Of a stretch of DNA of 36,083 nucleotides, positions 7,709-26,835 are shown piece after piece (position 1 is the first letter of the stretch; each line of letters opens with the position of its first letter). This DNA comes from Flavobacteriales bacterium (GTDB lineage: Bacteria > Bacteroidota > Bacteroidia > Flavobacteriales > UBA1820). Both the position numbers and the translations under genes were made by a program. The notes below the pieces were generated by a model. It was not told the DNA's origin. It was given only the letters and a program-made list of their open reading frames with translations, and ran no database searches. The stretch is from contig JAFYKQ010000129.1 of assembly GCA_017537565.1 (NCBI GenBank), forward strand, positions 1 to 36,083, read 5' to 3'.

Positions 7709-9331
<1,623 letters not shown>

Positions 9332-9369
9332 TTATAATGTCTTTATTTTTACCTATTTGTAACAGGTTG

Positions 9370-9377
9370 CAAAGGTA
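9370..9377 (-). promoter_or_regulatory. -7 box of the ABC-F gene
   Basis: The minus strand reads TACCTTTG, a perfect TAnnTTTG, 41 bp before the ATG. At the -33 position the strand shows a T tract rather than TTTG. Confidence 0.55.
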
Positions 9378-9445
9378 CGTATTTATATGGACTTAAAAAA
9401 TATGAAAAAACTTCACTTTTTCTGTAACCTTTGGTTTTAAAATTA

Positions 9446-9602
9446 CGTCTAATGTAGTAGAATCCACAAGGAGTTTTAAAACTGGCGCCGGAGCCTCTCC
9501 GGGCAGTGGGGCTTCCCCACCGTCTAATGTAGTAGAACCGCCCGTGGTGGCTGCACCGGAGAGGCTCCGGCCCCAATTAAAACCGCCCGTGGTGGCTGCA
9601 CC
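9446..9602. repeat. Compact intergenic repeat element with inverted and direct repeats
   Basis: Between the divergent ABC-F and lipoprotein genes lies a GC-rich island in AT-rich surroundings. It contains a 17-bp direct repeat (9446-9462 and 9521-9537, beginning CGTCTAATGTAG), a 22-bp direct repeat (9536-9557 and 9581-9602, core CCGTGGTGGCTGCACC), a perfect 16-bp inverted repeat (9487-9502 with 9556-9571, arm GCCGGAGCCTCTCCGG) and a small hairpin GTGGGG-CTT-CCCCAC at 9506-9520. No coding sequence is credible. The layout resembles a dispersed palindromic element or the remnant of one, made of partly duplicated modules. Copies elsewhere in the genome cannot be checked here. Confidence 0.7.
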
Positions 9603-9637
9603 ACTAGATAGAGATAAAAAAGAATAATGTTATAAAA

Positions 9638-10174
9638 ATGAAAGATATAAATTTGCATAGTGCAGTATGTATGGTAGTGATGCTGCTACTCGCCTCGTGT
9701 AATTCGACGTTTACTCGGCACAATTTCCTAGCCTATGACATAGATGAGGTGGGTGTTACACATATAGACATAAGAGAGGATATATTTGATGTAAAGATAG
9801 AGCCTTCGTGGAGTGACACGCTGAGCGTAGAGGTATATGCCGAAAACATAACTATGAGCGGTATGGCAGGATTTGAAAAACTCATAAAAAATGAAGGCCT
9901 CTATGAGATAGAGAGAGACTCGACACGTATGGAGATAAGAAACAGCCGTTCTATGACACGTGGTGTAAAAGAATCAAAAGGCGAGATGACCGTCAAGATA
10001 CCACCGGGAGTAACATATGTGCGTGTGAGTAGTAAACGAAGCGACGTGAGAGCAGAGGAAGTAGAGTTTGATACGCTGGAAATATATGCTATGCGGGGGA
10101 GTGTACTGCTAGAGAACTGTAAAGTGGAAAATCCACATATACGCTGTGAGCGTGTGATAATGATAGACAAATAA
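9638..10174 (+). CDS. Lipoprotein with a short DUF4097-like adhesin segment
   Basis: This 178-residue protein begins with a lipoprotein signal peptide ending in LLASC (lipidated Cys21), so it is expected in the outer or inner membrane facing the periplasm. The body lacks a named catalytic motif. Its C-terminal half (IPPGVTYVRVSSKRSDVRAEEVEFDTLEIYAMRGSVLLENC) has the alternating short-strand pattern of DUF4097 putative adhesins, like the next gene. It lies 16 bp upstream of that gene and forms an operon with it. All 15 isoleucines are encoded by ATA, an extreme bias. Function unknown; a role with its neighbour at the envelope is inference. Confidence 0.7.
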   Translation: MKDINLHSAVCMVVMLLLASCNSTFTRHNFLAYDIDEVGVTHIDIREDIFDVKIEPSWSDTLSVEVYAENITMSGMAGFEKLIKNEGLYEIERDSTRMEIRNSRSMTRGVKESKGEMTVKIPPGVTYVRVSSKRSDVRAEEVEFDTLEIYAMRGSVLLENCKVENPHIRCERVIMIDK

Positions 10175-14793: not shown

Positions 14794-15687
14794 ATGAAAA
14801 AACAACTATTTGTAATGATGATGATAATGGGAGTATCTACTCTTATGGCACAGAGTATAGATATTCTCCCCGAGGGTACTTTCAGTCCTGCTATGGAAGC
14901 TGCATCTCACGATGCAGATGGAAATATATATGCCGTGGGTCTAGCTATCCCTCATAAAGGAAATGTGGCTATTATGCGTGATGGCAAGGCTTCGCTATAT
15001 CTTACCCTACCTGCAGGTAGTATAGGAAATGGTATAGTGTGGGACAAGGCTGGTAATATGTACATAGCAGACTATACGGGACACAAGGTATGGGTAAAAC
15101 GTCAGGGTAAAAAAGAATTGGAAGTGTATGCTAGTCGTAGTGATATGTCCCAGCCAAATGACCTGGCAATACACCCTGCGGGATATATCTATGCATCAGA
15201 CCCTGCGTGGAGTAAGAGTACAGGGCGTCTGTGGCTTGTTAAAAAGGGAGAGATAACACTACTGGAAGATAATATGGGTACTACAAATGGTATAGAGGTG
15301 GCACCTTCGGGACGTTGTCTTTATGTAAATGAGTCTGTACAACGTCGTATATGGAAATATATGATACACAAGGACGGTACATTGGGTGCCAAAAAGATGT
15401 TCTTTGCTTTTCCAGACTATGGTATGGACGGTATGAGATGTGATAGTGCGGGTCGATTGTGGGTAACACGTCATGGCAAGGGTACGGTGGCTATAATATC
15501 TCCATCGGGAAAAATGGTCAAGGAGATAACATTGAGAGGTAAAAACTGTACCAATATCACTCTTATAGAGGACGATGATTATATATATGGATATGTAACG
15601 GTGGCCGACAGAGGCTGTTTTGAAAAGATACAGGTATCCAAAAAAGAGTTGAGAACTGTGGCTAGTATGGTAGGCATAGGTAGATAA
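14794..15687 (+). CDS. Exported SMP-30/gluconolactonase-like beta-propeller protein
   Basis: This 297-residue protein starts with a signal peptide (MKKQLFVMMMIMGVSTLMAQ) and continues as a six-bladed propeller of the SMP-30/gluconolactonase/NHL type. Blade signatures include NGIVWDKAGNMYIADY, TNGIEVAPSGRCLYVNES and DGMRCDSAGRLWVTRHG. In SMP-30 enzymes the Asn in the TNG loop and the Asp in the DGM loop bind the metal ion, and both are kept here, so a metal-dependent lactonase or esterase activity is possible. It shares an operon with the upstream alpha/beta hydrolase, so both may act on the same periplasmic compound (inference). No terminator hairpin follows; the next gene has its own promoter. 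Confidence 0.82.
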   Translation: MKKQLFVMMMIMGVSTLMAQSIDILPEGTFSPAMEAASHDADGNIYAVGLAIPHKGNVAIMRDGKASLYLTLPAGSIGNGIVWDKAGNMYIADYTGHKVWVKRQGKKELEVYASRSDMSQPNDLAIHPAGYIYASDPAWSKSTGRLWLVKKGEITLLEDNMGTTNGIEVAPSGRCLYVNESVQRRIWKYMIHKDGTLGAKKMFFAFPDYGMDGMRCDSAGRLWVTRHGKGTVAIISPSGKMVKEITLRGKNCTNITLIEDDDYIYGYVTVADRGCFEKIQVSKKELRTVASMVGIGR

Positions 15688-17827: not shown

Positions 17828-20641
17828 ATGACAAAGTTAAGAAGAACATTACTCGTAGCTGTATCTATGCTCTTTGGCACAATGATGTGTTATGCTCAAG
17901 AGGATTTCAGCTACAATCCCACAGCTCCACTACCTGTGAGCGATCAAATCAAGGTAGGTAAACTTAAAAACGGGCTTACTTACTACATTCGCAAGAATTC
18001 TCTACCAGAAAACAAGGTAGAGTTGCGACTGGTAGTCAATGCGGGTTCTGTACTTGAGAACGATGACCAGAGAGGTCTTGCTCACTTTACAGAACATATG
18101 GCATTTAATGGTACACGTGATTTCCCAGGCAATGCCATCATAGACCGTCTGGAAGAGATAGGTGTACGTTTTGGTGCAGACCTTAACGCTTATACTTCGT
18201 TTGACGAGACGGTGTATATGTTGCCTGTTCCAAAAGAACATCTGGATCTAGGACTTTCGGTGTTGGTAAACTGGGCTTTCTATCTCAATATGACAGATGA
18301 GGATATAGACGGCGAACGCGGTGTGATACTGGAAGAATTGCGTCTGGGTCGTGGTGCCAGCGAACGCCTGTCTGAAAAATATTTCCCAGTGCTATTGGGT
18401 GGAAGTAAATACCCAGAGCGTATGCCTATAGGTAAAGAGGAGGTCATAAAGAATTTCCCATATGAAACCATTCGCAGTTTCTATGACAACTGGTACCGTC
18501 CAGATAACGTAGCTGTGATAGTAGTGGGTGATATGAATCCAGACGAGGTCGAAGCCAAAATCAAGGCTCTGTTTGGTAAGGAAAAGAACCCACGCAAGGC
18601 TCCTGAACGCAAGGAAGAAGTTATCCCTTCTTTCAAAGGCTCAAAGGCTATCGTTGTTACAGACCGCGAAATGCCTACTACACAGTTGCAGGTAATATTC
18701 CGTGTAGGTGAAGAAGTAGACAAGACACAGGGAGATTACATAGAAGGCATAGAGGCAGGACTATATGGAGAGATGTTGAGTGCACGTCTACAGGAAATAG
18801 TACGTAAACCAGGTGCTCCATTTATGTATGCAGGTGCAGATTACAGCACACTGTTGCGTTGTACCAAAGCATTCAGCACTGTTGCTATATGTGCTCCTGG
18901 TGGGGCACAGGCGGCATTTAAGTGTCTTCAGACAGAGGCTCAGCGTGCCAAACTATATGGTTTTACACAGGGAGAACTGGACCGTGCCAAAGCTGCTGTA
19001 TTGAGCCGTTTTGAGCAGAGCTATTCAAACCGCGAAAAGATGCTCTCTTCACAGCACGTAGGTGAACTACAACGCAATTTCCTAATAGGAGAGTCTATCC
19101 CAGGTATAGAATATGAATATGCACTTATCAAGGCTGCTTTGCCAGGTATCACACTGGAAAAAGTAAACTCTTATGGAGATAAACTCATCACACTGGACAA
19201 TCGCGTGGTGATGGTTATGGGACCAGAAGGTCTGCCTTATCCTAGTGAGAAAGAATTGCTTGACATATTTGCAGCGGTAGATGCAGATAAATCTATCAAA
19301 CCTTACCAGGAGAAAATGACTGTAAAACAGCTTATGGATAAAACTCCTGTGGCAGGCAAGGTAGTGGCTGAAAAAACATATGATAAATCTGGTGTAGTAG
19401 AATGGACTCTTTCCAATGGAGCTACCGTATATCTTAAACCTACTACATTTAAGGCCGATGAAATCATTATGTCTGCATCTAGTAAAGGTGGACGTAGCCT
19501 GTATGAAGCTGCCGATGACCGCAATATACGTTTTGCTACACAGATACTATCACAAAGTGGTATAAACGGTATCTCGGCTACCGACCTATCCAAATTCCTT
19601 ACAGGTAAAAATGTACGTATATCTCCTTCTATCGGTGCCTACACAGAAACATTAAATGGACAGTATGTGAAAAAAGATGCTAAGACAGCATTTGAACTTA
19701 TGTATCTGTATTTCACTGCTCCATATTTCTCACAGGAGGCATTTGACCTGTTTGTGAAAAATGGTAAGGCTCGTGCGGCACTGCTTATGGAAGACCCAGA
19801 GGCTTATTTCTCATATAAGACTACCGAATTCCTTGCAAATGGCAACCCTCGTGCACTTAACACTCCTCTTGCTGCAGACTATGACGGTATAGACTTGAAA
19901 CGTGTAGAAGAAATCTACCGCGAACGTTTTGCAGGAGCAGATGACTTTAATTTCTACTTTGTGGGTAGCTTTACACTTGATGAGATACGTCCATATATAG
20001 AGACATATATAGCTTCGCTTCCTGCCAAAGGAGTCAAGGAAAACTATAAGGACATAACATCTACATACCCTGCTGGTAAAACAGAAAAAGTATTTAACAA
20101 GGGTGTAGATGCCAAAGCCAATGTGAGATTTGTATTTAACAAGACCGATGTTAAATATGACCGCAAGACTGCGTTTGATTTCAGTATCTTCTCGTCTATA
20201 CTTTCTACACGTCTTCTTAAATCATTGCGTGAAGAGATGGGAGGTACATATTCGGTAGGAGCTCGTGGTACTGCATACTGGCAGCCAAAAGATGAAGCAG
20301 AATTCATTATAGCTTTCTCTTCAAACGTAGAAAAATACACAGAACTATATGAGCGTGCTATAAGCGACCTTAAAGAACTGTATGCAAACGGCCCTACCGA
20401 TGAAGAAGTAGCTGCCAAAAAAGAACAGAACTCACTACAATGGATAGAACAAACCAAAACCAACAGATATTGGTTGTCTATACTATCTGGTGCAGTGAAC
20501 CAAGGTCTTTCCCCCGATGAAGCCCTTAAAACCAAAGACTATATAGATGGTCTTAATGCAGGCGATGTTAAAGCTGCTGGACAGAAATATCTAGATCCAG
20601 AAGAGTGGATACGTATCATATGCTTGCCAGAGAAAAAGTAA
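17828..20641 (+). CDS. Exported M16-family zinc metallopeptidase
   Basis: This 937-residue protein begins with a signal peptide (cut near MMCYAQ) and has the two-half architecture of M16 (pitrilysin/PqqL-like) peptidases. The inverted zinc motif HFTEH at residues 86-90 (His86 and His90 as ligands, Glu89 catalytic) and the distal acidic ligand in VILEELRLGR (around Glu169) are in the N-terminal half. The second half starts near residue 520 (VVEWTLSNGATVYLKPT) and lacks the zinc motif, as normal for the non-catalytic half that closes the chamber. The same arrangement occurs in exported peptidases of Porphyromonas. It probably degrades peptides in the periplasm. Codon use is more ATC-rich for Ile than in its neighbours, which suggests high expression. 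Confidence 0.93.
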   Translation: MTKLRRTLLVAVSMLFGTMMCYAQEDFSYNPTAPLPVSDQIKVGKLKNGLTYYIRKNSLPENKVELRLVVNAGSVLENDDQRGLAHFTEHMAFNGTRDFPGNAIIDRLEEIGVRFGADLNAYTSFDETVYMLPVPKEHLDLGLSVLVNWAFYLNMTDEDIDGERGVILEELRLGRGASERLSEKYFPVLLGGSKYPERMPIGKEEVIKNFPYETIRSFYDNWYRPDNVAVIVVGDMNPDEVEAKIKALFGKEKNPRKAPERKEEVIPSFKGSKAIVVTDREMPTTQLQVIFRVGEEVDKTQGDYIEGIEAGLYGEMLSARLQEIVRKPGAPFMYAGADYSTLLRCTKAFSTVAICAPGGAQAAFKCLQTEAQRAKLYGFTQGELDRAKAAVLSRFEQSYSNREKMLSSQHVGELQRNFLIGESIPGIEYEYALIKAALPGITLEKVNSYGDKLITLDNRVVMVMGPEGLPYPSEKELLDIFAAVDADKSIKPYQEKMTVKQLMDKTPVAGKVVAEKTYDKSGVVEWTLSNGATVYLKPTTFKADEIIMSASSKGGRSLYEAADDRNIRFATQILSQSGINGISATDLSKFLTGKNVRISPSIGAYTETLNGQYVKKDAKTAFELMYLYFTAPYFSQEAFDLFVKNGKARAALLMEDPEAYFSYKTTEFLANGNPRALNTPLAADYDGIDLKRVEEIYRERFAGADDFNFYFVGSFTLDEIRPYIETYIASLPAKGVKENYKDITSTYPAGKTEKVFNKGVDAKANVRFVFNKTDVKYDRKTAFDFSIFSSILSTRLLKSLREEMGGTYSVGARGTAYWQPKDEAEFIIAFSSNVEKYTELYERAISDLKELYANGPTDEEVAAKKEQNSLQWIEQTKTNRYWLSILSGAVNQGLSPDEALKTKDYIDGLNAGDVKAAGQKYLDPEEWIRIICLPEKK

Positions 20642-26419: not shown

Positions 26420-26822
26420 GGGGTCGGCATTGGCTTTGACAGCGAGACCGGTCGATATGTAAGCACGTAGAGCAGTGGGGGAGTGGCTCTTAAATCTCTT
26501 CCTCCGAAGTATAAACGGCGAAAATAACTACGCTCTTGCTGCCTAATCTCTCACAGAGAGACTAGAGCCTACGTCTGTTCAAGGAACAGAGGCGGGACAT
26601 CGCTCCGAAGCCACGTTTCACGGCGTTGGGACTAGCGGTGCCGAAAAGTGAAAACAAGCCTCCTGCCGACTGAGGGCAGAGGACTGAAATCTCAAATGCA
26701 GGGTAAGGCTGCCCTTATGGTGTTTGCGACATTAGGTAGCCCTGACAATCTCCCGCAAAATAAACGTGTAGAAAGCATAAAGGTCGCTCGTTTGGACCCG
26801 GGTTCGACTCCCGGCGGCTCCA
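26420..26822 (+). ncRNA. ssrA: Transfer-messenger RNA
   Basis: This one-piece tmRNA of about 403 nt rescues stalled ribosomes. The 5' end GGGGTCG pairs with CGGCTCC near the 3' end to make the acceptor stem (seven pairs, two of them G-U). The T arm reads GACCCGGGTTCGACTCCCGG. The tag frame starts with GGC at 26517 and encodes GENNYALAA followed by TAA at 26544-26546. The tag is identical to the P. gingivalis tag as I recall it, which supports placement near Porphyromonas. After the discriminator A at 26822 the genome reads CAG, so the CCA end is not fully encoded. The gene is divergent from the porP operon. Confidence 0.96.
26517..26546 (+). other. tmRNA tag reading frame (GENNYALAA)
   Basis: Codons GGC GAA AAT AAC TAC GCT CTT, then GCT GCC TAA, give the degradation tag. 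The terminal ALAA is the usual recognition end for ClpXP-type proteases. Confidence 0.93.
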
Positions 26823-26835
26823 CAGGAATGACAAT

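Follow-up and report, generated by a model that had tools for sequence, protein, structure and literature searches.

A GC-rich leader island in a Flavobacteriales bacterium, probably a composite of dispersed REP-like hairpin units beside an ECF-sigma-type promoter

The stretch of DNA analysed here (the window; 36,083 nucleotides of contig JAFYKQ010000129.1 from a Flavobacteriales bacterium, assembly GCA_017537565.1) contains a compact island of direct and inverted repeats between two divergent genes, and it raises the question of what such an island is made of and how it came to lie in a promoter region. On its left, on the minus strand, stands a gene with two ABC ATPase domains and an ABC_tran_Xtn domain (7709..9328), presumably of ABC-F type; on its right, on the plus strand, stands a gene with a Toastrack DUF4097 domain (9638..10174; PF13349, E 1.3e-5). 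A plus-strand tmRNA gene lies further along the window, at 26420-26825. Four genomes of one genus were compared, the window's own (G000) and three others (G001, G002 and G003), of which G002 (Flavobacteriales MAG RGIG8781, JAGAUI01, from water-deer colon) is the sister species; the counterpart of the DUF4097 gene is 85% identical in G002, and 23-31% identical in G001 and G003. Our reading is that the island is probably a composite of dispersed, lineage-specific REP-like units, locally grown in the 5' leader of the DUF4097 gene, which has an ECF-sigma-type promoter.

The repeats on which the original prediction was based, two kinds of direct repeat, an inverted repeat and a small hairpin, were all confirmed in place. 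The 17-nt direct repeat CGTCTAATGTAGTAGAA has copies at 9446-9462 and 9521-9537, and the second of these runs, as described, into the first copy of the 22-nt exact direct repeat (9536-9557 and 9581-9602) with an overlap of 2 nt; the 22-mer extends to 25 nt at 96% identity (9533-9557/9578-9602). The 16-nt exact inverted repeat lies within a 23-nt one that is 91% complementary (9480-9502/9556-9578), and the small hairpin, GTGGGG-CTT-CCCCAC, occupies 9506-9520. The GC content is 60% in 9446-9602 against 24% (9343-9445) and 17% (9603-9637) on either side, in agreement with the proposed GC-rich island in an AT-rich promoter region. The extent given earlier, 9446-9602 with one hairpin, was incomplete, as the island reaches 9604, holds four perfect hairpins (9488-9502, 9506-9520, 9556-9570 and 9589-9604) and is preceded by a promoter, holding the first 17-mer, that begins at 9423. 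None of 1000 dinucleotide shuffles of 9440-9610 held a direct repeat longer than 11 nt (22 observed), an inverted repeat longer than 12 nt (16 observed) or more than two hairpins with a stem of at least 6 bp (four observed); the repeats of the island are genuine and far above chance expectation.

The 17-mer had been regarded as a repeat module, and here the analysis led to a different assignment. Judged by its sequence and surroundings, copy 1 (9446-9462) covers the -10 and the presumed start of an ECF-sigma-type promoter on the plus strand (9423..9453; -35 TGTAACCTTT, -10 CGTCTAAT) and stands outside the repeat family. The layout is TGTAACCTTT-N13-CGTCTAAT, with 17 nt from TGTAAC to CGTC, a combination that we take to be a typical ECF sigma factor motif; none of the papers listed in our literature searches showed it. 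The pattern TGTAACCTTT-N(12-15)-GTCTAAT found 5, 7, 6 and 3 sites in G000, G001, G002 and G003, respectively (21 in total), and its reversed control found none. A slightly varied promoter precedes the DUF4097-matching gene at the same place in all four genomes, with the full CGTCTAAT in G000 and G002, AGTCTAAT in G001, where the C of CGTC is missing, and GGTCTAAT in G003, where the motif reads GGTC. By sequence likeness, promoter sites also stand ahead of TM2-type genes (three genomes) and DUF6249-type genes (all four), these types being assigned by Pfam on G000 proteins alone and in the other genomes by the likeness of the sequences. Beyond the two copies in the window the exact 17-mer occurs nowhere in G000. 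Four further places match it at one or two mismatches, and among them, besides the window, are three of the genome's five ECF-type promoter sites; the 17-mer was accordingly rejected as a module of the repeat family. Copy 2 (9521..9537, plus strand) is a duplicated -10 region that lacks a TGTAAC -35 at the right distance and is therefore probably no promoter; it is a by-product of the growth of the island. At a second ECF-type promoter, that of a TM2 gene (L084 near 17834-17890, G000:C33), we observed a 37-bp insertion present only in G000, which adjoins the -10 region and contains TTTTTAAAA or its complement.

What remains of the island can be described as hairpin units built from TTTTAAAAC, a 5-nt tag (YNGCM), a perfect GC-rich stem of 6 bp and a loop that is CCT, CTT or GCT, or GCTG, the TTTTAAAAC-YNGCM at the 5' side giving each unit its orientation; some units are paired in inverted orientation around a common palindromic TTTTAAAA core. 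Following 17-mer copy 1 on the plus strand, an 11-nt sequence, TCCACAAGGAG (9463..9473), which is missing from the G002 leader and resembles no recognised unit, is succeeded by unit A (9474..9502; TTTTAAAAC-TGGCG-CCGGAG-CCT-CTCCGG), scoring 44.3 bits against our covariance model R1, of whose 21 building units it is one. Unit B (9503..9520; GCA-GTGGGG-CTT-CCCCAC) has no linker and matches weakly (18.1 bits, E 0.14). Beyond 17-mer copy 2 come a first copy of unit C with a truncated stem (9538..9557; CGCCC-GTGGTG-GCTG-CACC; two mismatches to the unit C pattern), a unit A on the opposite strand (9556..9582; 21.8 bits, E 0.013) and a complete unit C on the plus strand (9575..9604; 17.1 bits, E 0.26, the model having a triloop and unit C a tetraloop). 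The last two form an inverted pair that has 8 nt of linker in common.

That these units share a fixed build was seen in several ways. Among 14 TTTAAAAC-Y-N-GC sites in the sampled stretches, chosen without any hairpin criterion, 13 had at least five of the six pairs in a fixed register (12 with a 3-nt loop and one with a 4-nt loop), compared with none of the 14 in eight of nine shifted-register controls and one of the 14 in the ninth. In the looser set defined by TTTAAAAC alone, a GC-rich hairpin lay within 32 nt at 23 of 59 sites; four octamers related to it gave 15 of 239. Triloop hairpins with GC-rich stems of 6-9 bp had the loop CTT, CCT or GCT, or its complement, in 23 of 35 cases in G000 and 15 of 20 in G002, a preference that is partly ascertained, although CTT and GCT had been in no prior search pattern except inside the 171-bp island; the sampled stretches were picked for holding copies, and densities in them are not genome averages. 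Aligning 21 units, 19 of them distinct, gave pairing in 99.1% of cells; among the distinct units five of the six stem pairs change on both sides, a mild excess (5 versus 3.5; 13 of 500 shuffles). The covariation score was 0.662 against 0.254 ± 0.042 in shuffled and at most 0.242 in slid alignments, with rows that were partly hairpin-selected, and one of the five measures, further pair types, did not rise above the shuffles (6 versus 7.4; 495 of 500 shuffles as high). At E up to 1 the model gave 63 matches in 562 kb of sampled sequence, many of them weak and 21 of them used to build it, and these include 13 inverted pairs with a palindromic linker of 7-8 nt in common, window positions 9556-9604 being one. 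Of the 67 hairpins listed, 53 lay outside a crude long-ORF mask that left 8.2% of the sequence as non-coding.

The original prediction called for a search for further copies, and this search split its material in two: the arms of the inverted repeat and of the hairpins are copied elsewhere, and the exact 17-mer is not. Against its own genome the island gave 12 matches at E <= 0.01, nine of them beyond the island, at seven loci. Unit C (20 nt, up to three mismatches) was found at nine places in G000, two of these in the window, nine in G002 and none in G001 or G003, and unit A (19 nt, up to three mismatches) at nine in G000, again with two in the window, four in G002, none in G001 and two in G003; each reversed control gave one match, in G003. 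In an order-wide scan, which scored 18 candidates per genome and used stricter filters, so losing weak matches, the model (E <= 0.01) found the family in G000 and G002, with at least 18 matches in each, and in none of the 393 other genomes of the 395 sampled. Exact unit C was confined to contigs of one species among 84,980, a set to which the window's own genome possibly does not belong; plasmids and phages held no match to the 171-bp island, and the 20-nt unit C was not found in exact form in viral contigs. Among the titles and opening lines of abstracts listed in our literature searches, none mentions such a hairpin family in Flavobacteriales.

Three observations were made around the dispersed copies. 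First, a unit hairpin lies directly after TGTAACCTTT, at the place expected for an ECF -10, in G000:C121 at ~85992-86021 (L090:15993-16021) and in G002:C14, and this hairpin (about 86007) is identical in the two genomes. Second, a multi-copy gene family with CarboxypepD_reg and Plug domains (tblastn matches, fragments included: 13 in G000, 17 in G002, 9 in G001 and 0 in G003) often has hairpin units just downstream of its copies (L076, L078, L082, L085, L100 and L102), several of which are at contig ends. We considered these genes as a carrier of the hairpins and rejected them as a regular partner; 20 of the 30 G000 and G002 matches were examined, and of the 11 that are followed by 140 bp of sequence or more, six had unit-type hairpins within 300 bp downstream. 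Third, a 222-bp non-coding repeat (G000:C57:23300-23521, or L085:17939-18160, and G002:C21:20259-20480) is 98.6% identical between the two genomes, stands in opposite orientation upstream of the same gene and is set in adjoining DNA of about 83% identity, which we read as recent spread or transfer; it matched in three of 296 order genomes, the third (G257) over about 40 nt only.

How the units were dispersed bears directly on what to call them. Like REPs, they are short palindromic stem-loops in many, mainly extragenic, copies, and REP spread has been attributed to RAYT transposases (accessible text of PMC3733652). The linked REP-type (Y1) transposase that had been suggested as a check was absent, however: Y1_Tnp, the sole transposase family searched, gave no match at E <= 0.001 in any of the four genus genomes, an absence that is provisional in draft assemblies (completeness 97, 94, 99 and 81%), and was positive in five of 14 control genomes, including E. 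coli. The search of these genomes thus puts no name to the agent of dispersal, and on this point the REP reading fails. Nor did any of the 21 aligned units have GTAG beside the stem or CGTC directly before it; in the L081 hairpin near 14909, which is not part of the alignment, a single base separates the stem from a preceding CGTC. Since neither a Y1 transposase nor a GTAG tag was found, we call the family REP-like and do not regard it as established as REP. It is nevertheless a serious possibility, if not the one we favour, that this is a true REP or REPIN family whose RAYT is missing from the draft assemblies. The perfect short palindromes, the GCT/CCT-type triloop and the inverted doublets resemble group 3 REPs and REPINs, as far as the accessible parts of PMC8266576 and PMC3116915 describe them, and 11 of the 27 unit loci are no more than 250 bp from the end of a contig, a place at which an assembly could lose a gene flanked by units; this has to be set against the lack of Y1_Tnp at the stated completeness and the missing tags, the nearest approach to which is the displaced CGTC of the L081 hairpin.

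A second possibility, which we put forward tentatively and consider rather unlikely, is a REP-like family whose spread and evolution involve no RAYT at all, the agent being replication template switching or an unfamiliar hairpin-handling enzyme. Linker, tag and triloop would then stay fixed while one perfect stem took the place of another, and growth would leave flanking duplications of variable length (15-22 nt).

Flanking duplications are present at some loci. Both blocks by which the island differs from the sister species are bounded by exact duplications of prior sequence (17 nt of promoter, and 22 nt around unit C), and at locus C73 (L075), where the G000/G002 alignment covers one side only, a unit A stands between two copies of a 15-nt sequence from the terminator tail and linker. 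Six of the 27 loci have units surrounded by direct repeats of at least 12 nt, compared with 23 of 2190 control windows (46 of the 63 model matches were used, the 17 weakest being dropped, and control windows were not confined to intergenic DNA). At four of these loci the repeats are, by eye, those of the modules themselves; non-module sequence is duplicated at only two of the 27 (15 nt, partly linker, and 17 nt), so they are no regular insertion signature, and a regular target-site duplication was not supported. Exact duplications at the block boundaries together with irregular flanks speak more for template switching, or for duplicative insertion of an irregular kind, than for a classical transposon. 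At least two unit loci coincide with an end of synteny between G000 and G002 (C6:12230; C45:11153 with C29:4465), and other apparent breaks are possibly contig ends; on the sequences compared, this is consistent with hairpins acting as recombination points. On our preferred reading the units, whose dispersal, structure and difference between sister species were observed directly, most likely spread as non-autonomous hairpin DNA, by an agent that we infer. Template switching in replication, or duplicative insertion, among the hairpins would then have made the local pile grow and left behind the 17- and 22-nt flanking duplications.

The growth by local duplication that had been proposed for the island is supported by comparison with G002. 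There the leader consists of the promoter, a single unit C and then the same sequence as the window up to the ATG, and when two blocks are taken out of the window, one of 75 bp (9463..9537, plus strand, in one possible phase) containing the second 17-mer and one of 45 bp (9558..9602, plus strand, in one possible phase) containing the second 22-mer, 53 of 55 positions match the G002 leader (two mismatches). The net difference of 120 bp is the sole indel longer than 19 bp in 34.6 kb of collinear alignment, the others listed being 15, 15, 15 (at the alignment end) and 19 bp. In G001 and G003 the leader of the DUF4097 gene has the promoter and no hairpin. From these sequences, gain in the G000 lineage is a simpler reading than slippage loss in G002: the ancestor of the two would probably have had one hairpin, unit C, beside the promoter, and the G000 lineage would have gained the 75-bp block, with units A and B and a duplicate of the 17-nt -10 region, and the 45-bp block, with an inverted unit A and a second unit C. 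This polarity rests on parsimony, two direct-repeat deletions in G002 yielding the same pair of sequences, and the exact 17- and 22-nt repeats bound the blocks just as slippage deletion requires, with G002 as the exactly collapsed form. We nevertheless judge it unlikely that the long leader is ancestral and that G002 lost both blocks in this way. The two leaders differ by 6.8% (13 of 192), from which 2.6 differences would be expected over the 39 nt of the repeats, yet both copies of each are identical in G000 (P(0) = 0.065), a weak argument against deletion; moreover, a duplicate of the -10 that lacks the -35 has to be a derived state at some stage, and the G001 and G003 leaders are without hairpins. 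On the preferred reading, of gain in the G000 lineage, the island is probably recent.

A transcript from the 9423-9453 promoter would gain a very stable 5' structure from the island. The predicted RNA of 9458-9640 folds at -79.5 kcal/mol (z -7.2 versus shuffles), with unit A paired to its inverted copy, compared with -17.3 kcal/mol (z -2.2) for the G002 leader (77 nt, with a start slightly further upstream); as single-stranded DNA, 9556-9604 forms two small hairpins (-10.9 kcal/mol, z -2.4). On the strength of this folding model, the leader probably alters translation or mRNA decay of the DUF4097 gene. One could go further and regard the hairpins as a selected cis regulatory RNA leader of an ECF regulon rather than as mobile repeats, an explanation that would account for the strong predicted fold, for stems that keep their pairing and for the related hairpin right after TGTAACCTTT at C121, identical in G002. 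We think it quite doubtful, as numerous other copies follow genes and neighbour terminator-like hairpins (by eye, uncounted), the matching leaders of G001 and G003 have no hairpins, and no Rfam family reached its gathering score at the island (best MIR5387, 22.1 bits against a cut-off of 69, E 0.15). The four window hairpins are not followed by a T run on the gene strand (by eye), as an intrinsic terminator would be, and the initial description of a modular palindromic element that is non-coding and no terminator is upheld. A one-off local rearrangement with no relatives elsewhere, to which the absence of the exact 17-mer from the rest of the genome might point, is very improbable, being refuted for the hairpins by the copies of units A and C at other loci in two species and tenable only for the duplication of the 17-mer.

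With dispersed REP-like units as the preferred reading, the locus is of use in two respects: the island shows a promoter fragment being duplicated as a hairpin element grows, and a young family with long and short versions of a site, covarying stems and no Y1 found makes the multiplication of transposase-less hairpin repeats testable. Among its closest likenesses are the group 3 REPs, described in the accessible text of PMC8266576 as short, generally perfect palindromes with GTAG and exemplified by REPSm of Stenotrophomonas, a palindrome of 16 nt interrupted by 3 nt (wild-type loop GCT, with CCT also tested); both are short perfect palindromes with a 3-nt loop, strand-oriented and in many copies. 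The window family differs from them in having no GTAG, a stem of 6 bp rather than 8 bp, no TnpAREP found and a single loop rule shared by several different stems. In REPINs, two REPs form an inverted doublet (accessible text of PMC3116915), and the inverted doublets and mosaic clusters of the window family are like those of REPINs and BIMEs as these sources (PMC3116915, PMC8266576) describe them, but its paired units share a palindromic core of 7-8 nt, and with 13 inverted pairs among 63 matches singlets are common. The CGTC REPs, reported from Bacteroidetes too, have loops of 4-5 nt, no dedicated transposase and an agent of spread given as unknown in the accessible text of PMC3733652; the window family, likewise palindromic and with no dedicated transposase found, has triloops, apart from the 4-nt loop of unit C, and no CGTC directly before the stem (21 of 21 units), the CGTC of the window being that of the promoter -10. 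Like MITEs, finally, the family is non-coding, dispersed and different between sisters, and it departs from them in having no consistent target duplication of fixed length and no partner transposon identified in the search of the Y1 family.
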